From Tychonema sp. LEGE 06208 (GTDB lineage Bacteria > Cyanobacteriota > Cyanobacteriia > Cyanobacteriales > Microcoleaceae): a stretch of DNA of 40,348 bases. Under the pieces are notes generated by a model that was given only the letters and a program-made list of their open reading frames with translations, had not been told where the DNA came from and made no database searches. The position numbers were made by a program, and so were the translations under genes. Position 1 is the first letter of the stretch, and each line of letters begins with the position of its first letter. Location: positions 1 to 40,348 of the forward strand of contig NZ_JADEWT010000055.1 of the NCBI RefSeq assembly GCF_015207505.1, given 5' to 3'. Below, in pieces: positions 600 through 36,260 of this stretch.

Positions 600-770
600 A
601 CTAATGATTGGTCAACTACCCATCACCAAGCGGAGTACCTCTATGGTGTGGGCTTGTATCTGAGCTCCACCGCAATTCCGAGAATCTAGAGAGAATCTCA
701 GCTTTAGTTTCACGGCCCGACACATCGCAAGGATGCTGACAAGCTCCCCGTACTCATCCAGTCTTGCCGG
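600..770 (-). ncRNA. candidate omega-RNA (reRNA) of TnpB
   Basis: Inferred by analogy. In characterised IS200/IS605 elements the TnpB guide RNA is transcribed across the tnpB 3' end into the right end, with the guide just outside the element. Here the tnpB stop at 710 is followed by about 100 bases leading into the right-end hairpin, the expected position. The boundaries are approximate, and no direct sequence signature beyond the hairpin was identified. Confidence 0.4.
619..652. repeat. right-end hairpin of the tnpB element
   Basis: Arms 619-627 (CCCATCACC) and 645-652 (GGTGTGGG) pair with a single bulged T at 623. The loop holds CGGAGTAC at 631-638. This matches the left-end hairpin in stem plan, bulge and loop motif. 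Confidence 0.75.
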
Positions 771-1951
771 ACAAGCAACGCTCTCATGGCAATATTTCGC
801 GCACCAATCAAATCAGCGTGTAATTCATGACTACAACATTCGCATCGAAACAATAGTCCTTTGTTTGGTCTATTGCCATCCGAAGTATGCCCACATTTAG
901 GACAACTTTTCGACGTGTAATGAGCCGGAACTTTCGTTGCTAACGAACCATTTAGGTTAGCTTTGTAGTCAATATACCCGTGCAATTCGGAGTATGACCA
1001 TTTAGCTTTGTTTCGATTAGCCCCACGTCTCTTCTTGCTTGCCTTGTTGCCCGATTTAGTTCTAGTTCTGTCCCGGATTCCGGTGAGGTTTTCTAGTCCA
1101 ATCAGGGTGTTAGGCTTTGCAATATCCTTACTGATTTGGTGGTTCACATCAGCGATAAACCGTCTCTCTCTCCCAGATAAAGCGATTAATCTTCGCTTCG
1201 CTGAACGAGTGTCTTTACGCTGAAGAGTCATCCGTGCTTTATGGTAGCGGTTAGCTTTGTGTCTAACATCTGAACCTGAGTAGAATTTAGACTTATTTTG
1301 CAAGTCTGTTTCCACCGCTAAGTAGCGCATACCCACGTCAACACCAGAGACTCTAGTTATTTTCAGTGGGTCAATTTTAGGCGTTTCTACTTCGATGCTG
1401 ACCATTAAGTAGTAGACCTTAGAAGAACGCTGATAGACAATTTTAGCCGCTCCAATATGAGCATCATTGGCAATTAAGTCTAAATGCTTGTTGTAGCCAT
1501 CATAGGAGACAACTATTCGACCTTGCAGCGTGATAATACTCACTTGCTGCTCGGTCTTAAAAGAGTAGTCCTGTTGATAGTTTAGGGTACAAGTTCGAGA
1601 TATATATTTGGGGGCTTTGTCTAACCCTTTATACCGTCTCTTAGTGTAGCATGAAGCAATAGCATCGTTAGATTGTTTTACCTTAGTCCACAAAGTTTTG
1701 TAAGTTCCAGAAACTTGTCTGGGTACGTTGCAAGCCATTTGGGCTCCCAGTCCAAAGTTCACCCGCAGTTCGTTGTAGACCGCTTTTTGTAGCTTAGCAC
1801 CATTGCTGGTTTTACCTGCGTCAAAAGCGACTTGTGAAGTGTAATTCAAGGCATCTCGGTAGGCTAAAGTAGTCTGAGACACCAAAGCTTTTTGCTCGGC
1901 TGTCAGGTTTAGTTTTAGCTTGGCTGCGATCGCTTGGGACATTACATTCAC
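710..1951 (-). CDS. tnpB: TnpB RNA-guided nuclease (IS200/IS605 family accessory protein)
   Basis: At 413 residues it has the usual TnpB size. The N-terminal helical region is followed by a RuvC-like core. The acidic triad is visible: Asp205 in GVDVG, Glu287 in GLENLTG and Asp380 in HADLIGARN. A four-cysteine zinc ribbon (Cys350, Cys353, Cys370, Cys373) lies between the second and third acidic residues, and a Lys/Arg-rich stretch spans about 295-315. All catalytic residues are present, so the nuclease looks intact. Family members are RNA-guided DNA endonucleases that cut at the element's own target and favour its retention. ATG at 1951 is used; ATG at 1942 is an alternative. No tnpA is adjacent. 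A second copy, broken by stop codons, is at 9825-10127. Confidence 0.93.
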   Translation of the reverse strand: MNVMSQAIAAKLKLNLTAEQKALVSQTTLAYRDALNYTSQVAFDAGKTSNGAKLQKAVYNELRVNFGLGAQMACNVPRQVSGTYKTLWTKVKQSNDAIASCYTKRRYKGLDKAPKYISRTCTLNYQQDYSFKTEQQVSIITLQGRIVVSYDGYNKHLDLIANDAHIGAAKIVYQRSSKVYYLMVSIEVETPKIDPLKITRVSGVDVGMRYLAVETDLQNKSKFYSGSDVRHKANRYHKARMTLQRKDTRSAKRRLIALSGRERRFIADVNHQISKDIAKPNTLIGLENLTGIRDRTRTKSGNKASKKRRGANRNKAKWSYSELHGYIDYKANLNGSLATKVPAHYTSKSCPKCGHTSDGNRPNKGLLFRCECCSHELHADLIGARNIAMRALLVRQDWMSTGSLSASLRCVGP

Positions 1952-8983: not shown

Positions 8984-9031
8984 CAATTCACAATTCACCG
9001 CATCAATCCCTTGTAAGCTAAGAATAAAAAC

Positions 9032-9703
9032 ATGATTACTGTCCACCATTTGAACAACTCTCGCTCCCAGCGAGTGCTCTGGCTGCTAGAGGAACTCGAC
9101 CTAGAGTATCAAGTCAAGCGCTACGAGCGCGATCCGAAAACAATGCTCGCTCCCGCGTCGCTGCGTGCAGTGCATCCACTCGGCAAGTCTCCCGTGATTA
9201 CCGATGGTGCGCTGACTCTGGCTGAATCCGGTGCGATCGTCGAATACTTAGTTGACCGTTACGGTGGCGGACGACTCGCTCCAGAGCTTGGCACGCCGGA
9301 ACGGTTGCGATACATCTACTGGCTGCATTATGCTGAAGGCTCTGCGATGCCCCCGCTACTGTTGAAGCTAGTCTTTGACCAAATCGAAACAAGTCCGATG
9401 CCGTTTTTCGCTCGACCCATCGCGCGGGCAATTGTGGCTCGCGTCAATAAATCGTTCATTGAGCCTCAAATCGCACTGCATCTGGGTTATCTAGAAGCAG
9501 AACTTGAGAAAAGCTTATGGTTTGTTGGTAGTGAGTTCACCGCAGCCGATATTCAGATGAGCTTTCCATTGGAGGCGGCCACTGTACGGGCAGGGTTGGA
9601 CAGCAGCCGACCGAAACTGATGGGCTTTCTCGATCGCATTCACGCGCGTCCCGCATACCGCCGTGCATTAGAACGTGGCGGGGCCTACGATCTGCTGAAT
9701 TAA
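9032..9703 (+). CDS. gst: Glutathione S-transferase family protein
   Basis: At 223 residues it has the standard GST length. The N-terminal thioredoxin-like domain (1-80) begins VHHLNNSRSQRVLWLLEEL and contains the cis-proline HPLGKSPVI and the glutathione-contact motif LAESGAIVEYL. The helical C-terminal domain (90-215) carries SLWFVGSEFTAADIQMSFPL, the conserved N-capping/hydrophobic-staple region. It probably conjugates glutathione to electrophiles or handles peroxides in the cytosol; the substrate cannot be read from sequence. It lies 48 bp behind the MgtA-like ATPase on the same strand, so co-transcription is likely. A palindromic repeat element begins four bases after its stop. Confidence 0.9.
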   Translation: MITVHHLNNSRSQRVLWLLEELDLEYQVKRYERDPKTMLAPASLRAVHPLGKSPVITDGALTLAESGAIVEYLVDRYGGGRLAPELGTPERLRYIYWLHYAEGSAMPPLLLKLVFDQIETSPMPFFARPIARAIVARVNKSFIEPQIALHLGYLEAELEKSLWFVGSEFTAADIQMSFPLEAATVRAGLDSSRPKLMGFLDRIHARPAYRRALERGGAYDLLN

Positions 9704-9706
9704 ACG

Positions 9707-9829
9707 GTTTATACCCTTTCAAGCGAAAGATGAGGTACTGTCGGCCAAACCGGCCAAACCGGCCAAACCGGCCAAACCGGCCAAACCGGCCAAACCGGGC
9801 ATACCTCACTTTTTTGAGAAAGGCTATAT
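9707..9829. repeat. inverted-repeat element with 9-bp tandem core (family A, copy 1)
   Basis: The left arm (9710-9738, TATACCCTTTC...GATGAGGTAC) is the inverse of the right arm (9799-9829, ATACCTCAC...GAGAAAGGCTATAT). Between them is CGGCCAAAC repeated six times exactly (9742-9795) plus a partial unit. Related arms with different cores occur at 15631-15751 and 20200-20299, and a right arm at 10290-10337. The element starts four bases after the GST stop, so it may also end that transcript. Confidence 0.8.
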
Positions 9830-10127
9830 CGCGGATGTAAACCACCAAGTCAGTAAGGAGATTGCAAAACCTAACACCCTGATTGGACGATAAAACCTAA
9901 CCGAAATACGGGACAGGACTAGGACTAAATCGGGTAAGAAGGCAAGCAAGAAGAGGCTTAGAGTCAATCGAAATAAACCTAAATAGTCTTAGGCCGAATT
10001 GCATGGGTATATTGACTACAAAACCCATCTAAATGGTTCGTTAGTAACGAAAGTTCCGGCTCATTACACATCGAAAAGTTGTCCTAAATGTGGACATACT
10101 TCGGATACTAATAGGTCGAATAAAAGG
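9825..10127 (+). pseudogene. decayed tnpB fragment
   Basis: One continuous frame reproduces about 100 residues of the tnpB at 710-1951, from ADVNHQ (its residue 268) to the first half of the zinc ribbon (SCPKCGHTSD). Nonsense codons interrupt it: TAA replaces the catalytic Glu of GLENL, and TAG codons fall around the KWSYSELHGY region. No frameshift is needed, and DNA identity to the intact copy is high by eye. Both ends of the gene are missing: the left border is the arm of one repeat element and the right border is a second repeat block. It is a dead relic of the same transposon family. Confidence 0.88.
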
Positions 10128-10337
10128 CAAACAGGGCATTGGGCGGAGCGAAGCGGAGGGATTGGGCGAGCGCGAAGCGGAGGGATTGGGAATTGGGAAT
10201 TGGGCGAGCGCGAAGCGGAGGGATTGGGCGAGCGCGAAGCGGAGGGATTGGGCAAACAGGGCATCTTGCCCGAAGAGCGAAGTCGAAGGCTGGGCTATGG
10301 GCATACCTCACCACGCTTGAGAACCGCTATAAATGCA
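10127..10337. repeat. 24-bp repeat block ending in a family A right arm (copy 4)
   Basis: A unit beginning ATTGGGCGAGCGCGAAGC occurs at 10161-10184, 10199-10222 and 10223-10246, with a 23-bp variant at 10138-10160. Two heptamers ATTGGGA (10185-10198) interrupt the series. GGCAAACAGGGCAT flanks the block on both sides (10127-10140 and 10251-10264). The segment 10298-10337 (GGGCATACCTCAC...GAGAACCGCTATA) is a family A right arm, but no left arm is present. The same 24-bp unit appears once inside the family A copy at 15693-15716. Confidence 0.75.
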
Positions 10338-10352
10338 CTTGGTAGATGAAAC

Positions 10353-10394
10353 GCCTGCTTACTTGGTACACCGAAGTGCACCAAGTAAGCAGGC
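10353..10394. terminator. 15-bp perfect inverted repeat after the ABC transporter
   Basis: GCCTGCTTACTTGGT (10353-10367) is exactly complementary to ACCAAGTAAGCAGGC (10380-10394), with a 12-nt loop. It lies 14 bp beyond the stop of the minus-strand ABC exporter gene. No T-run follows, so termination is plausible but not canonical. Confidence 0.5.
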
Positions 10395-10407
10395 TAAGCC
10401 CAAATCC

Positions 10408-12228
10408 CTAATTCAATAATTCGCCGGTTTCTTGCAGGGAGTGCAGGCGGCGGTAAATGCCTTGTTGCTTCAAGAGTTCGTCGTGGCTACCAATTTCAAC
10501 GATTTTACCGCCGTCTAATACAACGATCGCATCGGCTTCGCGAATTGTACTCAGTCGGTGGGCGATAATTATGGTGGTGCGCGTACCCAAAATATTTTGC
10601 ATGGCTAGTTGGATCGATCGCTCCGATTCATAATCCAAACTAGAAGTAGCTTCGTCAAAGATTAACACGTCCGGCTCCACCAACAAAGCCCTAGCAATTC
10701 CCAACCGCTGCCGCTGACCGCCGGACAAACGCATTCCCCGCTCCCCGACAACGGTATAGTAACCTTGGGGCAACAAGCCGACAAACTCGTCTACTCTGGC
10801 GATGCGACAAGCTTCCTTAACTTGCTCAAAAGTTGCTTTCCGGTTGCCGTAAATCAAATTTTCCAAGAGAGTACCGTTAAATACGTCTACTTCTTGATGC
10901 ACGATGGCTAAACGCTTGCGGTAGCGAGTCACGTCTAAGCTACAAATGTCCTCGCCGTCGATCAGAATGCGCCCGGAATTAAGCTCGAAATACCGAAACA
11001 GCAGTTTAACTAATGTTGATTTCCCCGAACCCGATCGCCCGACTAATGCTACAGTCTGGCGGGGATGAATTAATAAATTTACATCCTGCAAAACCGGCTT
11101 TTGGCGATCGTACCCGAATGTCAGCCCGCAAAATTCGATTTTGCCAGTAAATTTATAGGGCGATGCCGATACAGCATTTTCCGTTGCTAAATTGCCTGCA
11201 TCTACACCGTCTGGCAATTGCATAAACTCGTGAAACCGGATCATTGAAGAATAGCGGCGGGCCAATAATTCGGCGATAATGCTAATCGGACGCAGTTGGG
11301 AATAGGCCATGCTTGCTAAGGTGTAAACCGTAACAAAATATCCCAGAGATATCTGGCCGGCGACTGTTGCTGCCAAACTAAAACCGAGAACTGAAAACAG
11401 GCAAAACTGGACGATGGTCTGCTGGTATGTCCCCAGGATGACGTATCCTTTGTGAATGCGGTTAACTACTACTTTCAATTCGCGATCGAGTCTGGTTGTT
11501 TGTCTTTTTAGTTCGTCTGTTTCCGTCGCAAATGCTTTGACTGTTTTGATGTTGGTAATAATTTCTGAGTTGCGGCTTTCGGTATTTTCGATGTATTCAT
11601 CCAAAATTGCTTCGCGCTGAGTGACTTGTCGGAGGCTTTGGAGGGTGAAACTGAGGATAAAGAGGAAGGAAACCAAAATTAATAAGCCGATGCGCCATTC
11701 AATTAACCAGATAACTGCAAAGATGCCGATTAAGCGCACGACTTCGGGGATGAATTCACCGGCAATTTCTGGGTAAGTCCAAGTGTGGTTGGCGATGCCT
11801 TTGGCGATGCGGCTGGCAATCCGTCCGGCGTTGTTTTCGTCGTAGAATTCTAGGGGTAAGGTGAGGATTTTGCCGATCGCTCCTTTCATTCGATCGCGCC
11901 GCGCTGTTAATGGTAGCGCCCAGTGGAACCAATTTCCCACCCAAGGCTGTATGGGTGCTTTGGCGACTGTTACGATAAAAATCAAGCCCAGCAAGACGGA
12001 TAAGGATAATATTTTGCTTGGTGACTGCTGGGTAAGTGAGGCGATCGCTGCGATCGATTTTTGCGTTATTGTATCTGTAGGTCGATCGGACAATACGTTT
12101 AAGATTTGCCCGATCGCGTAGGGTACGGCTAAATCTGCGATCGCAAACAGGCTGGATGCACCGATGCTCAGAACCGAGGTTTTCCAGTAATTGTTGTAGT
12201 ATTTGATGATGTCCTGAAAGCTTGCCAT
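10408..12228 (-). CDS. ABC exporter, fused permease and ATPase
   Basis: A 606-residue half-transporter of the type I exporter (MsbA/McjD-like) class. It contains a six-helix membrane domain (about 1-330) and a C-terminal nucleotide-binding domain: Walker A GRSGSGKST (398-406), signature LSGGQ (501-505), Walker B VLIFDE (521-526), and H-loop His557 in IAHRLS. All ATPase motifs are intact; it should work as a homodimer exporting a lipid, peptide or hydrophobic compound. The substrate cannot be inferred, since no peptidase domain or biosynthetic cluster is nearby. ATG 12228 (MASFQDI) is preferred; an upstream in-frame TTG at 12258 would add 10 residues. Confidence 0.88.
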   Translation of the reverse strand: MASFQDIIKYYNNYWKTSVLSIGASSLFAIADLAVPYAIGQILNVLSDRPTDTITQKSIAAIASLTQQSPSKILSLSVLLGLIFIVTVAKAPIQPWVGNWFHWALPLTARRDRMKGAIGKILTLPLEFYDENNAGRIASRIAKGIANHTWTYPEIAGEFIPEVVRLIGIFAVIWLIEWRIGLLILVSFLFILSFTLQSLRQVTQREAILDEYIENTESRNSEIITNIKTVKAFATETDELKRQTTRLDRELKVVVNRIHKGYVILGTYQQTIVQFCLFSVLGFSLAATVAGQISLGYFVTVYTLASMAYSQLRPISIIAELLARRYSSMIRFHEFMQLPDGVDAGNLATENAVSASPYKFTGKIEFCGLTFGYDRQKPVLQDVNLLIHPRQTVALVGRSGSGKSTLVKLLFRYFELNSGRILIDGEDICSLDVTRYRKRLAIVHQEVDVFNGTLLENLIYGNRKATFEQVKEACRIARVDEFVGLLPQGYYTVVGERGMRLSGGQRQRLGIARALLVEPDVLIFDEATSSLDYESERSIQLAMQNILGTRTTIIIAHRLSTIREADAIVVLDGGKIVEIGSHDELLKQQGIYRRLHSLQETGELLN

Positions 12229-12528
12229 AAATTTCTTGTGAGATACAACCCCTTCCAAACACTTGAGTTTGATAATTGCGCGCGATGGCGACAGAACTAC
12301 AATTATACTACAAAAGTAGTCGGCGGGGGAAATCTATGGGATAACAGCAGATAGGCTCAGCTAACTCAGGAGTGCGATCGCTGATTTGGCATAAATATGA
12401 TGGGGAAGGGCGATCGATCTGCTGCACTCGATAGATCGCCCGCGATGATATTTCAAGCGTTGATGCAGCAACAGGAAACCACAGATTAACGTTCCTTGAC
12501 GCAGATAGTTTCCCCAAGAGCGATCGAA

Positions 12529-12990
12529 TTAATGCAATGCCGAACTCAGTTGTGGTGTCGCAGAAGTCCTTGTACTTGTAGTTTTGGGCAACAATTGATT
12601 TAGCGCATCGCACAAGTATTTTTTCACGGTGTCCCTGCTTGCACCCACGCCACTGGGAATGGTAAAAATCATCTCGACAGTTAACAGATTGCCATCCTCT
12701 GAGGCAAATACATCGATCGGCAAAGCGCGCTGAAAAGCTGTTGCGGGATTTTCTGCTTTCATCACACCCATGCTGACATCAGTGCTGACAGTCTTGATCC
12801 CCTCGCGGGCTAAAATGGGTCGCAATTGCGAAAATGCTTTTTCTACTGATAATCCCTCAACCTGAACCCGCGCCGAAAAGGCAGCACCACTGAGAAAGTC
12901 GCCTTTTTTTTGAAAGCTTTCCTCGCAGGTTGCGGCCACAGCGGGGCTAGCTAAACACATGAGAGCAAACGTCAAGAAAATCGATCGCAT
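12529..12990 (-). CDS. Secreted protein of unknown function
   Basis: This 153-residue protein has a clear Sec signal peptide (MRSIFLTFALMCLASPAVAA, cleavage around residue 20), so it is exported to the periplasm or beyond. The mature part has two cysteines (Cys22 and another in KKYLCDAL) that could form a disulfide, a repeated VQVEGLSVEKAFSQL/GVMKAENPATAFQR pattern suggesting a compact alpha/beta fold, and a Ser/Thr-rich C-terminal tail. I do not recognise the family. It is separated from the ABC exporter by 300 bp and is probably transcribed alone. The coding bias and signal peptide support a real gene. Confidence 0.7.
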   Translation of the reverse strand: MRSIFLTFALMCLASPAVAATCEESFQKKGDFLSGAAFSARVQVEGLSVEKAFSQLRPILAREGIKTVSTDVSMGVMKAENPATAFQRALPIDVFASEDGNLLTVEMIFTIPSGVGASRDTVKKYLCDALNQLLPKTTSTRTSATPQLSSALH

Positions 12991-13162
12991 AATATTAAGT
13001 TACAAGTATAAAAGCCTCATCAAGCTCAGGATAAGCACCACATAAGAGTTTGGCAAGTGCTGTCTGAGGGCAAAAAAATATAGAAGACAGAATTTGCTGA
13101 AAATTCTGCCTTCTGAGCAATGCTTTCTAATTCTTAGGTTCTCAGTGCTGGAGGCGCGCGAA

Positions 13163-13234
13163 CTCAAAAACCCGGTTCCTGCCTCAAGTATCTCCCGAAT
13201 CTATCGACGATTTTTCTGAGAAACCGGGTTTTTG
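13163..13234. repeat. inverted repeat, AAACCGGGTTT family, copy 2
   Basis: CAAAAACCCGGTT (13164-13176) is complementary to AAACCGGGTTTTTG (13221-13234) across a 44-bp spacer. The arm sequence is the same as at 3116-3182, but the spacer differs. It lies between two minus-strand genes, 26 bp past the stop of the 46-residue protein, and ends in a T-run, so it may terminate that gene. Confidence 0.6.
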
Positions 13235-13259
13235 CATAAGTCCTAGTTCTATGCGCCTG

Positions 13260-13400
13260 TTAGCTGAAGGCGTAGGCTGATTGCATCGCCCACCAGATCA
13301 GGAAGCCGATGCCGCTGCCAATGACGATCGCCGAAAGCCCGATCGCGATCGGGCTGTCAGCTCCTTTGAACTTCATGATTCCGCGATTTAAGTCTGACAT
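13260..13400 (-). CDS. 46-residue single-span membrane protein
   Basis: Starting at ATG 13400 the product is 46 residues: a polar head (MSDLNRGIMKFKGADSP) and one hydrophobic span (about 18-40) ending in SAYAFS. GGGAGA lies about nine bases upstream, a good ribosome binding site, and decides this start over the longer frame. The shape resembles the small one-helix subunits of thylakoid complexes, but I could not match it to a named photosystem, cytochrome b6f or NDH subunit, so no function is assigned. It is flanked downstream by a palindromic repeat with a T-run. Confidence 0.65.
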   Translation of the reverse strand: MSDLNRGIMKFKGADSPIAIGLSAIVIGSGIGFLIWWAMQSAYAFS

Positions 13401-13571
13401 GAGCAGTGTTCTCCCACGATTGCAGCTTGATTGTAGCCTTGCCTTGGGCGGATGACGGTTAAAAGCACTGCAATTACTGATTTTTTTAACAATCAAGCTG
13501 CTGCAAATTCAGGCGGGGCGCGGCCCGGCGCGCTGTCTGAAGTGTCTGAAAAAAAAACTTACAAAAAAGAC

Positions 13572-13600
13572 TTGACAAATTCGGAGAATTGAGACATTAT
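13572..13600 (+). promoter_or_regulatory. sigma70-type promoter of tRNA-Gly
   Basis: TTGACA (13572-13577) is followed after 17 bp by CATTAT (13595-13600). The tRNA begins 20 bp further on. The -35 matches consensus perfectly and the -10 matches at four of six positions; a TATAGT at 13598 is an alternative -10 with 20-bp spacing. Confidence 0.65.
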
Positions 13601-13619
13601 AGTTAAGACCGCAGGAAAT

Positions 13620-13691
13620 GCGGGTGTGGCTCAGTGGTAGAGCGTCACCTTGCCAAGGTGAATGTCGCGCGTTCGAATCGCGTCACCCGCT
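13620..13691 (+). tRNA. trnG-GCC: tRNA-Gly (anticodon GCC)
   Basis: The cloverleaf is complete: acceptor GCGGGTG/CACCCGC, D stem GCTC/GAGC, anticodon stem TCACC/GGTGA with loop TTGCCAA (GCC), and T stem GCGCG/CGCGT with loop TTCGAAT. The discriminator is T and no CCA is encoded. A strong promoter lies directly upstream. Confidence 0.96.
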
Positions 13692-13936
13692 TTAGAAGAT
13701 GGAAAAAATCAACAAAATGCAAAAGTATCAAAAGAAACTATTTGGTATACTCCCAGAAATGGTTGAAAATACCTAAGTTAGTGGTACAATTGAGTCCAGA
13801 ACTTGCAAGTCAAAATTGCTGGTCTAGCTTCGGCTAGAAACAAGCAGTTGAAAGCCTCTGGCAGAATTGACAAGCTTGATAAAGTGGATATGTTAACGAT
13901 TATTTTTGCAAAAACGCTTTTTTTATCCGATCGCTC

Positions 13937-14341
13937 GTGCCATCCCAAAAAGCTCAAAAAATTGACTTAAACGATGAGTACCCGTGCCCTTGCCGGCGCA
14001 AGGGTCGTCTCGTACCCATAACGCTGACAGAAGCCTTTGGCTGCAACCGCTGTCAGCAAATATTTGTATTGGACGAAAGCGGACAGGTGATCGAACAACT
14101 ATCAACAAACTATCCTTACAAGCAGGCTTGGCGCTGGACGGGGAAGCAATGGAACAGAGCGAATCCGGGTTTGAAAACCCACTACTTGCCACTGGCGCTA
14201 GGGATGATTTTGGTCCCGCTAGTGATTTGGTTGCCCCTGGCGCTGAACTCGCCCGGGCCGAATGTGATTCTGTGGGCAATGGTCGCCGTGCTGCTAGCAA
14301 TGCTGCCGGCACTGATGGTATGGCTGGCTTACAGGCGTTAG
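13937..14341 (+). CDS. Small membrane protein with N-terminal zinc ribbon
   Basis: The 134-residue product starts at GTG 13937 (MPSQKAQK). The N-terminal part has two paired-cysteine knuckles, CPC (about 17-19) and CNRC (about 36-39), which look like a zinc ribbon. The C-terminal half has two hydrophobic helices (about 82-103 and 109-130). I know no named function for this architecture. The gene ends 4 bp before the ProA-like gene and is on the same strand, so the two are very likely translated from one transcript. A TTGACA at 13867-13872 could be part of its promoter. No clear ribosome binding site precedes the GTG. Confidence 0.72.
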   Translation: MPSQKAQKIDLNDEYPCPCRRKGRLVPITLTEAFGCNRCQQIFVLDESGQVIEQLSTNYPYKQAWRWTGKQWNRANPGLKTHYLPLALGMILVPLVIWLPLALNSPGPNVILWAMVAVLLAMLPALMVWLAYRR

Positions 14342-14345
14342 TTAA

Positions 14346-15611
14346 ATGATAATAGAAGAATTTAGTCATTCATCAGATGGGGCAAATGTTGCCCGTCGCG
14401 CTTATCAAGCTTCTTTGGACTTGGCGGCGACAAAAAGCACCGATCGCGCTGCTGGTTTGCAGGCGATGGCGAGATCGCTAAAAGACAGACAAAATGACAT
14501 TTTAGAAGCAAATACTCTGGATCTAGAAGCGAGTCGCGATATGGCGATTCCCGACTTGATTGTGGAGTGGCTGAAGCTGACACCGGAACGGATCAAGACA
14601 ACTGTCCAAATTCTGGAACGGTTGGGGGAAATGCCAGATCCAATCGGCAGAGTGATCAATGCTTCCTATCAGGTCGATCGCTGTCAAGTATACTGTCAAT
14701 CGCTGCCGCTGGGGGCGATCGCCCTAATTTACGAGGCGTTTCCCGAGTTGGGGGCGATCGCGGCGGGTTTGTGTCTCAAAACCGCTAACAGTTTGATTCT
14801 CAAAGGTGGTAGCGAAAGCTGGCAAACTAATAGTGTAATTGGAGAAGCTTTGATCTCGGCGATCGATGAGGTAGGTTTGCCGTCAGGATGTTTGCAGGTA
14901 TTGCCGCCGGATCGGGGCGCTGCAATCCGCGATTTGGTGACTCAAGACCAATATCTCAATTTAATTATTCCCTACGGCAGACCGAGTTTGGTGCAGCAGG
15001 TGGTAAGGCTGTGCACTGCACCGGTGTTGCGATCGGCAATGGGCAATTGCTACCTCTATTGGTCGCCGACTGGTAGTTTGGAAATGGCAAGGTGGATGAT
15101 TTTGGACAGCCATCAAAGTGTGCCAGATCCGGTAAATGCGATCGAGAAAGTGCTGATCGATCGCAACCAAAAGCCTTCTTCCTTAGTCAGGCTGTGGAAC
15201 AGTTTAAAAGAAAAAGGCTTTCAAATTAGCGGAGACGCAGATCTCGTCGCAGATTTCCCAGAGTTGAAGCTGGCTGAACCCTACGAGTGGACTCAACCTT
15301 ACTTAAACAAAACCATAGCGTTTAAAGTTGTCGATAGTTTAGAAATTGCGATCGGCTGGATCAACCGCTACAGCAGCGGCCACGCTGACTCCATCGCCAC
15401 TGAATCTTACTTAGAAAGCCGCCAATTTGCTCTAGATGTCAACAGCGCCTCAACTTTTATTAATGCCTCCCCTCGGTTTTGGCGCTATCAAAATCGGGGA
15501 GATGCGATATTTTTGGGAATGTCCAACCAAAAAGGTTATCGCCGGGGATTAATCGGGCTAGATACGCTGACGACAATTAAAGAAATTGTTCAAGGTAACG
15601 GACAATTTTAA
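14346..15611 (+). CDS. proA: Gamma-glutamyl phosphate reductase (ProA) paralogue lacking the catalytic Cys
   Basis: At 421 residues it has ProA length and aligns throughout with glutamate-5-semialdehyde dehydrogenase: LPLGAIALIYEAFPE (cofactor domain), ILKGGSE, VLPPDRGAAIRDLV, and the C-terminal GLIGLDTLTT. Canonical ProA carries the catalytic cysteine in a (V/T)CN..ETLL motif; the equivalent here reads DPVNAIEKVL, with Val263 at the Cys position. The IPRGS loop is replaced by IPYGRPS. Reduction of glutamyl phosphate by the normal thiohemiacetal route therefore seems unlikely, and the protein may have a different or regulatory role. Cyanobacteria can encode a second, canonical proA; none is visible here. 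It follows a zinc-ribbon membrane protein by 4 bp. Confidence 0.85.
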   Translation: MIIEEFSHSSDGANVARRAYQASLDLAATKSTDRAAGLQAMARSLKDRQNDILEANTLDLEASRDMAIPDLIVEWLKLTPERIKTTVQILERLGEMPDPIGRVINASYQVDRCQVYCQSLPLGAIALIYEAFPELGAIAAGLCLKTANSLILKGGSESWQTNSVIGEALISAIDEVGLPSGCLQVLPPDRGAAIRDLVTQDQYLNLIIPYGRPSLVQQVVRLCTAPVLRSAMGNCYLYWSPTGSLEMARWMILDSHQSVPDPVNAIEKVLIDRNQKPSSLVRLWNSLKEKGFQISGDADLVADFPELKLAEPYEWTQPYLNKTIAFKVVDSLEIAIGWINRYSSGHADSIATESYLESRQFALDVNSASTFINASPRFWRYQNRGDAIFLGMSNQKGYRRGLIGLDTLTTIKEIVQGNGQF

Positions 15612-15630
15612 GGTAAGTTGCTTCTTGTGA

Positions 15631-15751
15631 GCTATATCAATTCTCAGAAAGATGAGGTGCTGTCGGGCATAGGGCATAGGGCATAGGGCATAGGGCGAGC
15701 GCGAAGCGGAGGGATTGGGCATACCTCACTTTATTGAGCACAAATCATATC
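15631..15751. repeat. inverted-repeat element with 7-bp tandem core (family A, copy 2)
   Basis: The left arm 15631-15660 ends GATGAGGTGC and the right arm 15718-15751 begins GCATACCTCAC. The core is GGGCATA repeated four times (15665-15692), then one copy of the 24-bp unit that is tandemly repeated at 10138-10246. It begins 19 bp after the proA stop. Arms are more diverged than in copies 1 and 3. Confidence 0.75.
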
Positions 15752-15807
15752 AATTTCGGTTGCACTCAAACATGATTGTTGACAGTTAACTCGATTTTAT
15801 TATTCTG

Positions 15808-16002
15808 ATGCAACCGGAAACGATATTATTGGTTATTGGTTCACAATCCGATAACTTATATATACCCTTATTTTCAATAAGCTGTTTGGAAACGGAATCT
15901 CCGGCTTATTTCACAAGAACATTAAATTTTTGCAGAACAGGCAAACCTGTTGCTAACAATCCTGCAATATCTCAGATACAATTAACTGTAGAAAGTTATT
16001 GA
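15808..16002 (+). CDS. short hypothetical frame upstream of the desaturase
   Basis: A 64-codon frame with no recognisable family and no evident ribosome binding site. The only support is its position in the otherwise empty 15752-16030 gap on the same strand as the desaturase. It may be chance. Confidence 0.2.
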   Translation: MQPETILLVIGSQSDNLYIPLFSISCLETESPAYFTRTLNFCRTGKPVANNPAISQIQLTVESY

Positions 16003-16030
16003 GTGACATCGAAATACTCTTATCCAAAAC

Positions 16031-17170
16031 ATGAAATCAGAAAAAAAACTCAATACTCTAGACAAGACTGAAACACCGACCTTAAGCGAAGAAACGCTAA
16101 TTCACCACTCGGTATATGTTAAAAAATTGCGCCCGCTGCTGCCATCAGATGCCTTTGAACCGAATTCAAGCAAGTTAGGGATACTGCTGATAAATATCGC
16201 GATTTTATTGTTGGGATGGGGAATTGCTGCTAATCTCGATCGCTGGCCAGTCTATTTTTTATGGCTTTACTTACCCTTAGCCGTCATCATGGGCAATAGT
16301 ATCACAGTTTTGCTGTTTAGCTCCCACGACTTGATGCACGGTAGCGTTCAGAAAAAGTCGCGCCTGACTTATCCGATCGCCTTTTTTGGCCTAAGTATGC
16401 TGTTCATGCCGCCTACTCAGTGGAAAAATCTGCACAACCTCGTACACCACAACAACACCAATTCTGCTGCAGATCCCGATCGCAATTACCTGTACCAGCA
16501 GCCCGACACCTGGGGAAAATGGATTCAAAATCTGTTTGTACCGTCGGTGGAAGTCAATCCGCTGTGGTTAATTGTCGGGATGGCAGGTTCCTGGTTTGTA
16601 CACAATTTCCGCAATCTCACCTCGATACTGTTATTCAACGATAAATCTGTCGATTACGTACCGGCTGCCTTTACAGTTAGTCCGAAAGATAGAAGAACGA
16701 TCGCCTTTGAATGTCTGGGAATTGTCGGAATTCACCTGAGTATCTTGTTCTATCTAGAGTTTAACCCGATTAAAGTAGCTCTTGCCTACATTTTGCCGAT
16801 CGCGATCGGTCATGGGGCCGCCATGTTCTACATCTTCACCAATCACATGGGCTGTCGGATGACCGAGATTAACGACCCGCTGATAAATAGTGCTTCGCTG
16901 CGGGTTCCTAAAATATTTGATGTCCTGCACTTAAATTTTTCTTACCACACAGAACATCACATTTTTCCCAGCATCAACTCAAACTATTACCCGATGGTGC
17001 AAGAGTTGTTGCAAATTCACTATCCCGGCCGCATGAATTTAATCGATGCTGGAGAAGCTTGGCGCTTGTTGATGCAAACCCCCAGACATTACAAAGATGA
17101 AGTCACCTTCACCGATTCCTCTGGAACAATGGCCGTGAATTGCAGTATTCTGGAAGAATACAAAGGCTGA
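16031..17170 (+). CDS. Membrane fatty acid desaturase family protein
   Basis: This 379-residue di-iron membrane enzyme has all three histidine boxes: HDLMH (99-103), HNLVHH (135-140) and HTEHH (306-310), with hydrophobic segments at about 48-95, 112-128, 170-185 and 220-265. The family inserts double bonds into acyl chains, usually of membrane lipids, using ferredoxin and O2. The N-terminal 40 residues are polar and contain no cytochrome b5 domain. The exact regiospecificity (delta-9, delta-12 or other) cannot be assigned by eye. It converges with a damaged CFA-synthase-like methyltransferase gene, and a perfect palindrome (17189-17214) follows its stop. Confidence 0.85.
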   Translation: MKSEKKLNTLDKTETPTLSEETLIHHSVYVKKLRPLLPSDAFEPNSSKLGILLINIAILLLGWGIAANLDRWPVYFLWLYLPLAVIMGNSITVLLFSSHDLMHGSVQKKSRLTYPIAFFGLSMLFMPPTQWKNLHNLVHHNNTNSAADPDRNYLYQQPDTWGKWIQNLFVPSVEVNPLWLIVGMAGSWFVHNFRNLTSILLFNDKSVDYVPAAFTVSPKDRRTIAFECLGIVGIHLSILFYLEFNPIKVALAYILPIAIGHGAAMFYIFTNHMGCRMTEINDPLINSASLRVPKIFDVLHLNFSYHTEHHIFPSINSNYYPMVQELLQIHYPGRMNLIDAGEAWRLLMQTPRHYKDEVTFTDSSGTMAVNCSILEEYKG

Positions 17171-17188
17171 TATAGTCATATTTTAATA

Positions 17189-17214
17189 AGTAAGGTGCGC
17201 GAGCGCACCTTACT
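17189..17214. terminator. perfect 12-bp palindrome after the desaturase
   Basis: AGTAAGGTGCGC (17189-17200) pairs exactly with GCGCACCTTACT (17203-17214) around a GA centre. It lies 18 bp after the desaturase stop. The arm GTAAGGTGCG is shared with the hairpin family at 22625, 31030, 31109 and 32090. There is no T-run, so termination is only inferred. Confidence 0.55.
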
Positions 17215-17530
17215 GCTGGTCAACAGTAAAGAGCGAAAACTTAATAACTTAAGCACCTCCTACAGCTTTCTCTCCTGTAAGTTTCGAGATAAAAGTCGGC
17301 TATTCCTCGCCTATCTACGTTATCAAGAAGATCCTGGTAACAAGCAATATCATTTCCGTTTGATGCAGAATTAGAGCATTTTAAGTTTTGTCGGTACGGG
17401 TGCGGTTAAATATTTGATAAAGATCGAAAAATTATATAAACCCGCCCCGCCCCTACTACAATTCCGATGTTACCGGATTTGATATAATTAGCCGGACATG
17501 AGATCAAAGCCTGTCCGGGAATGCTAGCGA
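17215..17530. other. intergenic region between convergent lipid genes
   Basis: No gene is seen. CCGGACA (17492-17498) pairs with TGTCCGG (17512-17518), just beyond the restored methyltransferase stop on the minus strand, and may terminate that gene. Confidence 0.4.
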
Positions 17531-18660
17531 TTAGGCGCGAACCATTAAATATTGACCGTTACCGTTATATTCGCCGTCGCAACTCGCGAAATTAGACACA
17601 AACCAAATCAAGTAAAACCGCCAGATGCGACGAAATTTGGCATAGTCGATGCCGTAGTCTAAATCTTTGACTGTTGCCTGAGAATCGTCAAAGTTTTTCA
17701 GCCAGTTAGCAAAGGTTTTGGAGTAATTGTATCCGTTGATATACCATCTTTTAATGGTTTTGAGGTCTTTGTTGTGGCTGGAACATCGTATTTCCAGTAA
17801 CGGCCGTGGGGGAAAATGTATTTGTGGGTGAAAACGCTGGATATATTGTTGGGAGTGCGAACTGTGATGATGTGAATGAAAACTTTGCCGTTATCCTTCA
17901 GGAAAGATTCCAGCTTTTGGAAAGCTTTCCTTAAATTGCCTATATGCTCAAAAACTCCGATGGAGAGAATTGTGTCAAATTTGGTCTCGAAGTTGGCGTC
18001 GTTCAAATCGCCTTCATATAGGGTAAATCGACCGGAACTAAGGTAGCTTTCGGGGTCTTGCATCTTGTGCCGCATATACTCGCATTGGTGGTGGCTCAAG
18101 TTAATGCCGGTAAACTGGACATTGGGGAATTTGGAAAGAATGTAATTGGGAACGCAGCCCCAACCGCAGCCAAAGTCTAAAATATTGTCGCCATCTTGTA
18201 TCTGTAGCTTTTCAATGACATCATCAATCATCTGCATTTGTGCTTGTTCGAGATTGGCGGCTCCTTTTTCCCACAATCCCATGCTGTATTTAGGATAAAT
18301 GAGTTTGCTGTCGCCTAACATCGGATTCAGCATGGCTTGAGGTAAGTCGTACTGAATCTTCATTAAATCCCGCGGCCCTTCGGCGGTATGGTCTGTTTCT
18401 GTTAGTACCCATTCGTAGGGTGCGAGGAGGGAGGGAAAATACTTAAAAAAGACTGGCATACAGGTATCAAAAAGCGATCGCAATACAGAATCCGGTACTT
18501 CTAAACCGTTGATATAAGACTCTGCTACTGCCATTTGCACCGCGTTAACTGCACTGACTACGAAGCGAGTTGCTCCGTAGGCGATCGGGCTTTTGGTGTG
18601 TACATCTCCCACGATAGGGATGTGTTTTTCGATGCTTTGTAGAACTGTTGATGAACTCAT
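17531..18660 (-). pseudogene. CFA-synthase-like SAM methyltransferase, broken by a frameshift
   Basis: Reading from ATG 18660, the first 290 or so residues match the cyclopropane-fatty-acid synthase/coclaurine N-methyltransferase-like family: the SAM-binding ILDFGCGWG (about 160-168), FTGINLSHHQ and SIGVFEHIG. After GRYWKYDVP the frame runs into a non-homologous tail and stops at 17698. In the frame one base away the expected C-terminus continues without interruption (SHNKDLKTIKRWYINGYNYS, ending GQYLMVRA) to a TAA at 17531-17533. One C missing from a C-run near 17780-17781 explains it exactly. The full protein would be 376 residues, normal for the family. It is either a very recent null mutation or a sequencing error. 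It converges with a desaturase gene. Confidence 0.85.
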
Positions 18661-19148
18661 GTTTATACTGTTTTTAAAGATGCTGCTATTCTATCTCACA
18701 AAAATTTGCTGGCCGTTATAGGGTCAAAAATCTGAAACTATTACTAATTAAGGTTTTAAGAACTAAAGCCTGCTAAAATATAAAAATATGTGACTGAAAG
18801 GTCGGATTAGGCAACGAATTTATCAGGCTTTCAGCCCGTATTAAACTATTAAGAATAATTTAATTTTGTCAATAAAAGTAACGCTAGAAAACAGAACTCC
18901 CAACTCTGGAACATCTTGAAGAAGTTGGGGATATAATGGCGATCGAGTGAGGCGATCGTTTTCTGAATGTCGCGTATCGGGCCTCAGCTTGGCGGTTGAG
19001 TTCGGAAAATAAGAGAAAATCCTGATACAGTTAAGAAATCAGGGCATATAGAAAAGAGTTTTAAAAATTGGGTTGGCATCGCACCGGTTGATGGCGATCG
19101 CAGATTTGAGCGAGATTTCTCGCGCTATTCAGGTTGGAGATGCCACAG
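18661..19148. other. 488-bp divergent promoter region
   Basis: It separates the minus-strand methyltransferase from the plus-strand ferredoxin-cyclase and must hold both promoters. I see no gene, strong consensus promoter or repeat. The frame at 19073 overlaps the cyclase gene and is a shadow. Confidence 0.45.
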
Positions 19149-20186
19149 ATGCCGCACATTCACTATCTGCCGGACGATCGCACGATCGAGATAGACGACG
19201 ACGATATAATTCTCGAAGCTTCCCTCAGTGCCGGCATTCCCCACACCCACATCTGCGGCGGTAGCGCCCGGTGTTCGACTTGCCGCGTCTTGATTGTCGA
19301 AGGTTTGGAATTTTGCTCTCCGCGCACCTCGTCGGAAGAGGAACTTGCAAAAAAATTACGCTTAGAGCCCGAAATTAGGCTGGCTTGTCAGACACAGGTG
19401 GCGGGCGGGAAGGTGATTTTGCGCCGATTGGCGATCGATTCTGAAGACTTGGAAGCATTTAACGACGAAATGGTCGGAAAGTTGATTTCTGCTCCTGTGG
19501 GACACGAGAAAAAAATTGCAATTTTGTTTGCTGATATTCGAGGGTTTACTGCGTTTGCAGAATCGCTGCTCCCCTACGACGTAATTTATATTTTAAATCG
19601 CTATTTCCAAAAAATGGGTTATGTTATTAACCGCAACGGCGGGATGATTAATAATTATATGGGAGATGGTTTCATGGCGCTATTTGGGTTAGAAAATCCC
19701 GAAAAGGCGGCGGAACAAGCAGTGAGGGCGGGAGTGGAAATGCTGGAGGAACTAGAGAAACTCAATCCCTATTTTGAGACTTTATACCGTCACCGATTGC
19801 GGATTGGGATTGGGATTCACTGCGGTTTGGCGGTTGTGGGGAATTTGGGGGCATCGAAGAGTCAGAGAGTTACGGCGATCGGAGATGCAGTAAATTTGGC
19901 CAGCCGGATCGAAGCTGCTAACAAGCAAGTAGGAACGAGTTTATTGATTTCCGAGGAGACTTATCAGGAAGTCAAGGAATTGGCGATCGTCAATCAATGC
20001 GTATTAGTTGAAATTCCGGGAAAAAGCGGCGAATATCCGCTCTATGAAGTAGTCGGAATGCCGCCGCTGCCCGTGGAAATAGAAGATTTATTTGAGGTAA
20101 GAAAAGTTTCAATTTGGCAAATTTTTGTAAATAAGTTACGGGCTTTGTCTGCGGCGGTGTACAATTGGATTAGGAAAATATTTTGA
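19149..20186 (+). CDS. Ferredoxin-domain class III nucleotide cyclase fusion
   Basis: The 345-residue protein joins a plant-type [2Fe-2S] ferredoxin domain (1-95) to a class III adenylate/guanylate cyclase catalytic domain (about 120-310). The four cluster ligands are Cys36, Cys42, Cys45 and Cys80. The cyclase metal ligands are Asp129 (FADIRGF) and Asp173 (MGDGF), and the transition-state pair is Asn249 and Arg253 (NLASR), so it should be active. The base-specificity position, Lys in typical adenylate cyclases, reads Asn169 (INNYMGDG) and the second is Thr242, so ATP versus GTP is uncertain. A redox signal probably controls second-messenger synthesis. A C-terminal tail (310-345) is amphipathic. 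ATG 19149 is chosen because GGAG lies 8-9 bp upstream; ATG 19140 is directly abutted by it. Confidence 0.88.
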   Translation: MPHIHYLPDDRTIEIDDDDIILEASLSAGIPHTHICGGSARCSTCRVLIVEGLEFCSPRTSSEEELAKKLRLEPEIRLACQTQVAGGKVILRRLAIDSEDLEAFNDEMVGKLISAPVGHEKKIAILFADIRGFTAFAESLLPYDVIYILNRYFQKMGYVINRNGGMINNYMGDGFMALFGLENPEKAAEQAVRAGVEMLEELEKLNPYFETLYRHRLRIGIGIHCGLAVVGNLGASKSQRVTAIGDAVNLASRIEAANKQVGTSLLISEETYQEVKELAIVNQCVLVEIPGKSGEYPLYEVVGMPPLPVEIEDLFEVRKVSIWQIFVNKLRALSAAVYNWIRKIF

Positions 20187-20199
20187 GTTAAATTATAAA

Positions 20200-20299
20200 A
20201 CTATAGCCTTTCAAGCGAAAGATGAGGTACGATCCGGCCTAGGGCCTAGGGCCTAGGGCCTAGGGCTATCCTCACTTTTGTGAGAACCGCTATATAAAG
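20200..20299. repeat. inverted-repeat element with 7-bp tandem core (family A, copy 3)
   Basis: The left arm (20201-20230, CTATAGCCTTTCAAGC...GATGAGGTAC) matches copy 1 almost base for base. The right arm (20266-20298) ends GAGAACCGCTATATAAAG, as in copy 4. The core is GGCCTAG repeated four times (20236-20263). It begins 14 bp after the cyclase stop. Confidence 0.8.
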
Positions 20300-20329
20300 C
20301 AAGTTTCTTTTTTTTATAAACTCGATAAT

Positions 20330-20803
20330 ATGAATATTCCCAAGTCAATAGTTCGCATTTTTATAATGCTCCCGAACGGTCAGATTGGAGTACAACTGCG
20401 AGATAATATTCCAGGTATTGCCAGTCAAGGAATGGTTTCTACTTTTGGTGGTGGCGTGGACATTGGAGAAAGTCCACAGCAGGCAGCAGTGCGAGAAATG
20501 GAGGAAGAAACTTGCCTCGCAATACCTGATTACACAATGGAATTTATCGCAACTTTTACTCACAAAAAGTCCCAAAACGATATAAAAATTTTACAAAACA
20601 ACCATCTTTTTTTGGTGAGAGTTAGCGATTGCGATCAAATAGAAATCAAAGAAGGTGTCGGTTTGGTAGTTTTGAGAAAAGATATAGATTTTGAAAAAGT
20701 CAACGCAGGGGAGGGTACTCAAATGGCTTGGAAATTGTTACAGGAATATTTAAAATTGCAAACCACACACGACCTTTTAGCCACCAGGAAAATGAAACTT
20801 TAA
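20330..20803 (+). CDS. Nudix hydrolase
   Basis: This 157-residue protein has a Nudix box beginning at about residue 40: GGVDIGE, seven residues, then REMEEET. It matches Gx5Ex7REUxEExGU except that the final glycine is Cys. The catalytic REx2EE acids are intact, so pyrophosphohydrolase activity on a nucleoside diphosphate derivative is expected; the substrate is unknown. The N-terminal IVRIFIMLPNGQIGVQLR and the rest of the fold are usual. An HD-domain hydrolase lies 126 bp downstream on the same strand. Confidence 0.85.
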   Translation: MNIPKSIVRIFIMLPNGQIGVQLRDNIPGIASQGMVSTFGGGVDIGESPQQAAVREMEEETCLAIPDYTMEFIATFTHKKSQNDIKILQNNHLFLVRVSDCDQIEIKEGVGLVVLRKDIDFEKVNAGEGTQMAWKLLQEYLKLQTTHDLLATRKMKL

Positions 20804-20929
20804 TAGAGAATTTCTGTACTATGTTGTCGCGCATTTGGATTGCATATTCATGGCGGGCAGGATGCCCAACCCCTACTCCCCACAAGAGTTTTATTTTTTT
20901 TAACATACAGTTAAAATGGAGAACAGCTT

Positions 20930-21385
20930 ATGTTGTCTAATAGGAATTCAGACTACGAATTATTACTGCAACGAGCGATCGCGATCGCAGCCAAAGCACA
21001 TGAGGAGCAGGTTGATAAGGCAGGCAATCCCTATCTCGATCATCCGCTATTTGTGATGGAAAATGTAACTTCTCTAGAGCAGAAAATCGTAGCGGTTCTC
21101 CACGATGCAGTCGAAGATTCTGAACTTACACTTGAGCAACTTAGAAGCGAAGATTTTCCTGAAGTTATCGTCTCGGCGATCGCGGCGATTACCAAAATAG
21201 AAGGAGAAGCTTATGCAGCTTATTTAGAACGTGTGATTGCCAACCCGATCGCACTGCGAGTCAAAATCGCTGATGTTACTCATAACCTCGATATTCGTCG
21301 CATCGCCAATCCGACAGAGGCAGATTTTCAACGCATGGCAAAATACAAAAAAGTCCTCAGTCAGTTGCGTGCCGCCTTAAAGTAA
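20930..21385 (+). CDS. HD-domain phosphohydrolase, Mesh1/SpoT-hydrolase-like
   Basis: At 151 residues this is a single HD domain. The metal ligands appear as His38 (YLDHP), His58-Asp59 in LHDAVEDS, and a late Asp in KIADVTHNLD, which parallels the KLADRLHN motif of RelA/SpoT hydrolase domains. The size and motif order resemble small alarmone hydrolases (Mesh1), suggesting (p)ppGpp hydrolysis, but that is inference. A good ribosome binding site (GGAG at 20918-20921) precedes ATG 20930. It sits behind a Nudix gene and converges with fabG. Confidence 0.82.
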   Translation: MLSNRNSDYELLLQRAIAIAAKAHEEQVDKAGNPYLDHPLFVMENVTSLEQKIVAVLHDAVEDSELTLEQLRSEDFPEVIVSAIAAITKIEGEAYAAYLERVIANPIALRVKIADVTHNLDIRRIANPTEADFQRMAKYKKVLSQLRAALK

Positions 21386-36043: not shown

Positions 36044-36219
36044 TTGGCAGTTGGCAGTTGGCAGTTGGCAGTTGGTTGTTGGTTGTTGGCAGTTGGCAGT
36101 TGGCAGTTGGCAGTTGGCAGTTGGTTGTTGGTTGTTGGTTGTTGGTTGTTGGTTGTTGGTAGGGCGGTGCCAAAAGTGCCCGCTCTTTTAGTTGGTTGTT
36201 GGTTGTTGGCAGTTGGTTG
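36044..36219 (+). repeat. 21-unit heptamer array (STRR type)
   Basis: Seventeen contiguous 7-bp units fill 36044-36162. With A=TTGGCAG and B=TTGGTTG the order is A4 B2 A5 B5, then TTGGTAG. A 29-bp unrelated segment interrupts (36163-36191), and four more units (B B A B) follow at 36192-36219. There is no mismatch other than the one variant unit. The array starts at the base after the stop codon of the upstream gene. It resembles the short tandemly repeated heptamers (STRR) known from cyanobacteria. Confidence 0.9.
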
Positions 36220-36260
36220 TTGACATTCTACTCATGTAATATTTGGAGACAGTTACAGTT

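Follow-up and report, generated by a model that had tools for sequence, protein, structure and literature searches.

MITEs with a tandemly repeated core are already known from bacteria, but earlier work did not settle by what process such a core changes. Among them are BrickBuilt and PgRS/MITE464 of Porphyromonas gingivalis, with 19 BrickBuilt copies in ATCC 33277; in the available portion of the paper its authors state that they cannot tell whether the repeats acquire base changes anew at individual sites or through recombination from one site to another, and that expansion at a locus is still to be tested (PMC4596501). The elements of Tychonema sp. LEGE 06208 considered here were likened to BrickBuilt and BOX from published descriptions. 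Like BrickBuilt and PgRS they have near-identical terminal repeats around different internal repeats (23 nt and 41 nt in Porphyromonas), are intergenic, and have a parent IS proposed from shared ends; unlike them, as far as the same portion goes, they have IS630 ends rather than IS5-family ends with irregular target duplications, and units of 7-9 nt, many types in one family, rather than 23/41-nt units in two families (PMC4596501). In Streptococcus, BOX elements (boxA-boxB(n)-boxC) likewise have conserved ends, around a tandem middle that is present in different copy numbers in different strains, and in S. suis the same middle module is found between different ends, a further likeness, but BOX ends resemble ISSpn2, according to the accessible part of that account (PMC3049150). 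The first-pass annotation of this DNA knew of no described element with such an organisation; the accessible accounts of BrickBuilt and BOX, with conserved ends around a variable tandem core, describe two (PMC4596501, PMC3049150).

Other described repeats share single features with these elements. RUP of Streptococcus pneumoniae, in another genus, is around 107 bp with IS630-family-like ends, as here, but the available text on it makes no mention of a tandem core (PMC3049150). Nezha, as other papers describe it, is a cyanobacterial MITE tied by its ends to an ISNpu3-like IS (PMC3049150, PMC4596501, PMC10969869). The GGGNATC heptamers of Xanthomonas and Nostoc have GGG runs, a mainly non-coding location and a very variable repeat number, as here, but in the part of the source available they are not mentioned as lying between transposon ends (PMC4692102). 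No description of the arm-bounded family itself was found among the matches listed in CC-licensed PubMed Central literature.

The host is a Microcoleus-type cyanobacterium, and the arm-bounded elements, which contain no genes, are around 100 bp long. The window, that is the whole stretch of 40,348 nucleotides that was analysed, contains the following features.

710-1951, minus strand: intact tnpB, a relative of the decayed fragment below
9710..9828, plus strand: copy 1, a two-armed miniature element of 119 bp with core CGGCCAAAC x6.3 and a TA duplication, in a tnpB remnant
9710..9738, plus strand: left arm (terminal inverted repeat) of copy 1
9742-9798: array of copy 1, CGGCCAAAC x6.3
9799..9828, plus strand: right arm of copy 1
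9829..10128, plus strand: decayed tnpB fragment interrupted by copy 1 (matches to query 417-729)
10129..10301, plus strand: array resembling a core, made of 24-bp GGGCGAGCGCGAAGCGGAGGGATT units and GGGCAT units; no left arm
10302..10331, plus strand: orphan right arm CATACCTCACCACGCTTGAGAACCGCTATA, 0 mismatches
15634..15642, plus strand: left direct repeat ATATCAATT beside copy 2, single in the empty site of genome G021
15643..15746, plus strand: copy 2, lacking the tips, with GGGCATA x4.6 and a single 24-bp module
15665-15696: array of copy 2, GGGCATA x4.6
15747..15755, plus strand: right direct repeat ATATCAATT beside copy 2
20202..20294, plus strand: copy 3, a two-armed element of 93 bp with core GGCCTAG x4.4
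20236-20266: array of copy 3, GGCCTAG x4.4

Copies 1 and 3, the lone right arm and the three different cores had been picked out in the first-pass annotation, and all were recovered at these positions. The arms said to be common to all three copies are present in copies 1 and 3 but only in part in copy 2, which lacks the outer TATAGCC / GGCTATA tips and matches only in the inner CTCAGAAAGATGAGGTGC and CATACCTCACTTTATTGAG. A genome search bore out the existence of an arm family: at up to 3 mismatches the host genome has 19 left-arm and 50 right-arm places, and a control pattern of reversed arms has no match. With a fuzzy pattern at least 60 distinct two-armed elements were found dispersed among the host loci examined. 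Members of the family are between 67 and about 240 bp long (the search went up to 260 bp), have no gene and are bounded by left and right arms in inverted orientation. Within the genus 25 of 29 genomes have the arms; among 39 genomes from other families none does.

Duplication of a TA target was seen at copies 1 and 3 and at four other sites, all six being sites of the MITE rather than of an IS. Copy 1 splits the tnpB sequence GGTTTATCGC as GGTT-TA-element-TA-TCGC. Copy 3 is absent at the same place in genomes G020, G018, G011 and G015; the duplication is clearest against the empty site of G015 and is one base off in the other three. Comparison with empty sites gave the same result for L119 (against L294) and L035 (against L137) and, one base off, for L239 (against L241). 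A TA duplication is also seen for L168 against L132/L214, with matching flanks of only 39-41 and 84-86 bases, and this comparison may have hit a repeat rather than an ortholog. For copy 2 the empty-site comparison gave no TA duplication and instead the flanking 9-bp repeat.

Relatives of the host carry elements of 1.1-1.4 kb that have the same ends as the MITE and an IS630 transposase inside. The IS end is present in 21 of 29 genomes of the genus; 11 of 30 fetched IS-end loci have both ends inverted (6 TATAGC-type, 5 TACAGC-type) and 11 others run off the contig. One such element is L202, 1177 bp with ends TATAGCCTTTCTCAGAAAGATGAGGTAC / ATACCTCATCTTTCTGAGAAAGGCTATA; among the 141 parsed elements, 5 have exactly its left end. 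Its 292-aa open frame matches Pfam DDE_3 (PF13358) at 110.5 bits, cut-off 28.6, and the NCBIfam IS630 transposase model NF033545 at 132.7 bits, cut-off 100. This frame lacks an N-terminal part that is present in L206, which has an internal stop, and none of the inspected IS loci combines TATAGC ends with an intact transposase of full length. In the host genome there are 7 DDE_3 matches, among them L163 with one arm-like end and L165 with both; the TIR-bounded transposase genes of this genome look broken, and current mobility of its elements is therefore not supported.

Taken as a whole, the explanation that we regard as probable is that these elements are a family of MITEs, non-autonomous derivatives of IS630-family (Tc1/mariner-like) IS. 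An IS630 transposase would move them in trans, inserting them at TA and duplicating it, and the arms would be transposon ends, retained because the transposase needs them. The core would be a spacer without a coding role that may have started, judging by the shortest copies, as one or two GGGCAT-type heptamers, and would host short tandem repeats of a sort which the genome makes elsewhere too. These repeats would grow and shrink through slippage, and copies could exchange cores; with dozens of similar arms present, gene conversion or template switching among them would be the simplest route. Slippage together with exchange between copies would lead genomes to drift to different unit alphabets. 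The missing TATAGC tips of copy 2, and its 9-bp repeat in place of TA, count against this explanation.

The cores of the three copies had been called unrelated, a view that did not survive comparison, since all draw on one small alphabet of units (GGGCATN, GGCCAAACC, GGCCTCCGT, GGCCTAG and a 24-mer) and the array of copy 1 is found again at contig C174 between different arms. The 24-mer resembles, by description, a feature of other cyanobacterial repeats. The small dispersed repeats of cyanobacteria treated by Elhai et al. in 2008 reportedly have 20-odd-bp modules inside tandem heptamers, and they are not known to have terminal repeats. Unit types differ between genomes: of 44 segments from G011 (6 contigs), 8 contain GG[CG]CTGGAGT, which occurs in 0 of 112 host, 0 of 110 G021 and 0 of 39 G028 segments, whereas GGCCAAAC[CA] occurs in 0 of 44 in G011 as against 15 in the host, 15 in G021 and 7 in G028; a single element may be represented by both of its strands among these segments, and the host loci were partly fetched via core patterns. 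Left arm, leader and right arm tend to occur in particular combinations of types, with Cramer V values of 0.41-0.49 that exceed those of all 300 permutations. Exchange is thus not free, and free exchange of arms and cores was rejected.

Evidence that cores change in place comes from ten pairs of elements at the same site in different genomes. The core differs by one base in 1 pair, by length in 4 and by unit type or order in 5, so that 9 of 10 differ by more than one base; most of the assemblies are drafts, with a MAG on one side in 3 of the 10 pairs, and some of these core differences may therefore be assembly artefacts. G020 is the only genome in the ten pairs known as a single contig; for elements of G011 no same-site pair was found, and core swaps are thus unsupported in a near-finished genome. 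Composite, tandem or very diverged pairs (L176/L180, L351/L379, L241/L239, L187/L009 and L064/L382) were left out of the ten. Arm identity was scored for 8 pairs, the other two being L028/L336 and L007/L335; the sequence of L336 is the same as that of L146. All 8 have kept the right arm, with 28-30 of 30 bases identical, whereas only 4 have kept the left arm. The pairs with this degree of identity (28-30 of 30) in both arms are L092/L152, L052/L370, L096/L157 and L138/L148; in L043/L183, L088/L098, L393/L366 and L182/L196 the left arm differs too. In L092/L152, with flanks 98% identical and both arms 29 of 30, around 5 GGGCTTGC units in one genome correspond to around 3 GGGCATA units plus GGCCTCCGT in the other; this is the single scored pair in which both arms are held and the unit type has changed. 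The first-pass idea of a palindromic element with a changing tandem core is upheld insofar as the core turns over faster than the flanks, and conservation of the arms while cores vary between strains holds for the right arm but for only half of the left arms. Several of the 25 positive genomes contain dozens of copies, orthologous sites are available both filled and empty, and a parent transposon is visible, which makes the question of how the core changes directly testable; long-read genomes alone would be enough to measure how fast, in which direction and over what tract length exchange occurs, and the answer would show one route for the spread and renewal of intergenic heptamer arrays in these cyanobacteria.

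It is possible, although we lean against it, that slippage driven by a hairpin acts by itself, the arms extruding a hairpin and the polymerase slipping in its loop, so that tandem repeats would both arise and change at the site itself, with no exchange between copies. Changes of repeat number or indels in L096/L157 (7 bp), L052/L370 (21 bp), L182/L196 (5 bp) and L028/L146 (24 bp net) would be expected from such a process, as would the homogeneous arrays of different variant units, of 16 kinds, in 64 of the 141 elements (from 247) that could be parsed for units, where a place in two collections may count twice. Furthermore, copies 1 and 3 fold strongly relative to shuffles (z -5.41 and -4.39), but copy 2 folds no better than its shuffles (z -0.53). 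In L092/L152 a change of unit type goes along with a change of the leader by the left arm, and pairs such as L043/L183 and L088/L098 differ in the left arm itself, which does not fit slippage in a loop. Heptamer arrays of the same units also occur without arms: the first 100 of 278 heptamer matches gave 37 arrays, and with the one at the start of C59 left out, 15 of 36 had none by eye (4 of the 15 at contig ends), while a script rule scored 6 with both arms, 11 with one and 19 with none. A hairpin is therefore not needed to make arrays.

Alternatively, the same-site differences could be separate insertions, the same TA having been hit in two lineages or a clean exit followed by a new entry, which we consider unlikely. 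Elements do insert at TA, and left-arm differences such as those in L043/L183, L088/L098 and L393/L366, for which loop slippage fails to account, could be explained in this way. Against this, the four pairs with both arms near-identical, and a right arm held in every scored pair, would each demand that one TA be struck twice in the same orientation by the same arm subtype, which is improbable each time. A further reading, to which we also give little weight, is that the arms form the boundary of a cassette: at sites fixed since the lineages split, arm-primed gene conversion or hairpin template switching would replace, as a block, the segment that begins beside the right arm and extends as far as the left arm or includes it, using cores of other copies, and amplification would follow. 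If true, the transposon family would be a genome-wide source of new tandem repeats, with alphabets diverging between genomes.

That the elements are functional RNA or DNA at 3' ends, a terminator or mRNA stabiliser with its stem under selection, is very unlikely. Each copy had been said to begin 4-20 bp after a stop codon; copies 1 and 3 do so (6 and 15 bp), but copy 2 starts at 31 bp. Stop-codon ends lie within 30 bp of host copies in 8 of 29 cases against 56 of 540 for random TA sites from the same loci (Fisher p = 0.010, a rough value since the control sites are not independent), and start-codon ends show no such excess (2/20 against 89/593, p = 0.75); closeness to a stop codon is thus a mild tendency rather than a rule. 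The elements are mostly intergenic: a crude gene call places 7 of 32 within an ORF as against 1268 of 1920 control sites (32 of 42 host elements were placed, those on short loci being skipped), but selection against insertion in genes and promoters would yield the same bias. The proposal that the elements act as 3' ends found no backing: a scan for G+C-rich stems with a T run behind them and loops of 3-8 bases gave 16 terminator-like sites at 9000-21000 and none in the three copies, the poor folding of copy 2 does not fit, and Rfam at gathering thresholds returned three tRNAs only in the window and no family in the copies.

An origin as remnants of an IS200/IS605-type (tnpB) element, suggested by the tnpB fragment adjoining copy 1 and the orphan right arm, is hardly credible and was rejected, because no arms bound the intact tnpB, a stretch of tnpB is itself split by copy 1, and elsewhere the copies show TA duplications and are related to an IS630 element. 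Finally, tandem structure alone explains the excess of a four-run GGG motif, which was not counted as evidence for a quadruplex role; of the 247 loosely called elements 83 contain it, always on the GGGCAT strand, whereas mononucleotide shuffles give a mean of 0.71.

The two arms of the elements, each about 30 bp long, form imperfect inverted repeats. As the reading in the first-pass annotation required, they recur elsewhere in the 6.55 Mb host genome, of which the window is contig C183: a pattern search allowing up to 3 mismatches placed the left arm at 19 and the right arm at 50 places, compared to 0 matches for the reversed patterns. A fuzzy pattern gave 60 distinct two-armed elements among the host loci supplied to the script. 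Across genomes, the right-arm pattern was matched in 34 of the 98 searched (the host counted), namely 25/29 within the genus and 9/30 from other genera of the family, with 1-3 matches apiece, and in 0/39 from other families of the order. Its exact 26-base form was found in 92 stretches of a public genome collection; since all 92 bear cyanobacterial titles (Microcoleus, Tychonema, Lyngbya sp. CCAP 1446/10, Phorm 6, Oscillatoriales MAGs and cyanobacterial MAGs), we infer that the relevant clade is Microcoleus-like.

Features of the window
710-1951, minus strand: TnpB gene, 413 aa (NCBIfam guided_TnpB, score above cut-off)
9710-9828: copy 1, two-armed element
9829-10128: 8 kb from that gene, decayed fragment of a close relative, broken by copy 1
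15643-15746: copy 2, inner arm parts only, transposon tips absent
20202-20294: copy 3, two-armed element

Copy 1 splits the tnpB remnant as ACGGTT-TA-element-TA-TCGC, where the intact gene (710-1951) has ACGGTTTATCGC. The site of copy 3 is empty in four compared genomes; a single TA fits best in G015, and G020, G018 and G011 differ by one base. Filled and empty loci compared elsewhere also agree with TA duplication (L119 with L294 and L035 with L137), as do L239 and L241, one base off and with a composite insert, and L168 with L132/L214, where the matching flanks are short. Copy 2 is absent from G021 and G028; its flanks, compared to the empty site, carry no TA-insertion signature, but instead a repeat of ATATCAATT on either side (15634-15755), present singly in the G021 empty site.

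The ends are of IS630 type, and relatives carry the transposase. One such locus, L202, is 1177 bp long with 28-bp ends differing at one position, and its 292-aa frame scores above cut-off as an IS630 family transposase (NCBIfam) and DDE_3 (Pfam). The L202 frame is missing an N-terminal part that L206 has, and L206 in turn contains an internal stop. The left end is exactly that of L202 in 5/141 parsed elements. The transposase-side end pattern is present in 21/29 genomes of the genus, and 11/30 loci bearing it have a second, inverted end at 0.8-1.3 kb. Among the host's 7 DDE_3 matches, L163 has a single arm-like end, TATAGCCTTTATCAGAAAGATGAGGTAC, and L165 has both, TACAGC-type, 848 bp end to end. 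The elements would be mobilised in trans. In an IS630 relative from G006 (L212), a tandem repeat separates the end of the element from the start of the transposase; such repeats arise in the parent element as well.

The cores are built from GGGCATN heptamers, the 9-mers GGCCAAACC and GGCCTCCGT, GGCCTAG, the 8-mer GGGCTTGC and a 24-bp module, the final heptamer merging into the right arm (GGGCATACCTCAC). Exact arrays, with units of 5-10 bp repeated 2.5 times or more, occur in 64/141 parsed elements, with 16 kinds of unit. The CGGCCAAAC array of copy 1 is found again between other arms on host contig C174 and, mixed with GGGCATA, on C199. The same units also form arrays without arms (15/36 by eye, 19/36 by the script's rule, among the matches listed), and therefore the element hosts a repeat class which the genome makes anyway. 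A long GTTGGTT/AGTTGGC array right behind an ORF end (window 36042-36222) is another member of the general heptamer class. The composite insertions L176 (G007) and L180 (G016) are palindromic too; their long core is of another kind (GTACGTAGTTGCGCTT...), and they end in the same right arm.

Ten pairs of filled elements were compared, each pair occupying the same site in different genomes. The core differs by one base in L138/L148, by length or indels in L096/L157, L052/L370, L182/L196 and L028/L146 (the host core being 24 bp net longer, with the 24-bp module), and in unit type or order in L092/L152, L007/L335, L043/L183, L088/L098 and L393/L366, the last having the same units reordered. All eight pairs scored for arm identity keep the right arm at 28-30/30 identical positions, and four of them (L052/L370, L096/L157, L138/L148, L092/L152) keep the left arm to the same degree. 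By these scores L092/L152 is the sole pair with a changed unit type between well-kept arms; L007/L335, which is not among the eight, comes near it. Where the left arm differs, the differences may reflect separate insertions at the same TA; pairs with agreement in both arms are the least likely to have arisen in this way. Misassembly may also lie behind some of them, since one side is a MAG in 3/10 pairs (L098, L152, L157) and the G-numbered genomes from which the pairs come, G020 excepted, are draft assemblies in tens to hundreds of contigs. For changes within one insertion, repeat number may alter by slippage and unit type by gene conversion or template switching. In L032 (host contig C33, 27738-27881) the right arm and last core units are tandemly duplicated with a 49-bp step, so the arm itself can be copied too.

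Unit sets differ by genome (segments possibly including both strands of one element). GG[CG]CTGGAGT is present in 8/44 segments of G011, an assembly of 6 contigs, and in 0/112 in the host, 0/110 in G021 and 0/39 in G028. GGCCAAAC[CA] has 0 in G011 compared to 15, 15 and 7, and the 24-bp module 0 compared to 12, 2 and 0, the host being favoured in these two counts, as core patterns or a match to copy 1 had served to collect some of its loci. Frequent in G011 yet not private to it are GGCCTCCGCG (7; 0, 4 and 0 elsewhere) and GGGAATA (7; 3, 4 and 1). The right tip in G011 ends in GCTGTA at 15/23 places, although found with a pattern ending GCTATA. These differences fit repeated transposition plus exchange inside genomes.

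The first-pass annotation took the organisation to be undescribed. Conserved ends around different repeats are known: closest are the BrickBuilt and PgRS MITEs of P. gingivalis (PMC4596501), with near-identical ends around different tandem repeats. BOX shares the variable tandem middle and RUP the tie to IS630 (both PMC3049150), and heptamers with GGG runs are on record in Nostoc and Xanthomonas (PMC4692102). Among the papers listed in literature searches, none described an IS630-type MITE whose heptamer cores are interchangeable.

A long hairpin fold is predicted for copies 1 (z -5.41) and 3 (z -4.39) and not for copy 2 (z -0.53). The suggested role as 3' ends was not borne out: a terminator scan (loops of 3-8 bases) gave no terminator-like site within the three copies, and the excess near stop codons is mild (8/29 stop-codon ends beside host copies within 30 bp, compared to 56/540 in a random-TA control from the same loci; Fisher p = 0.010, rough as control sites are non-independent) and is explained as well by counter-selection of insertions into genes and promoters. 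Separately, the minus strand has a terminator candidate at 10353-10394, a hairpin of 19 pairs with a T-rich tail, which adjoins the 3' end of an ABC-transporter-like ORF at 10408-12258 (minus strand).
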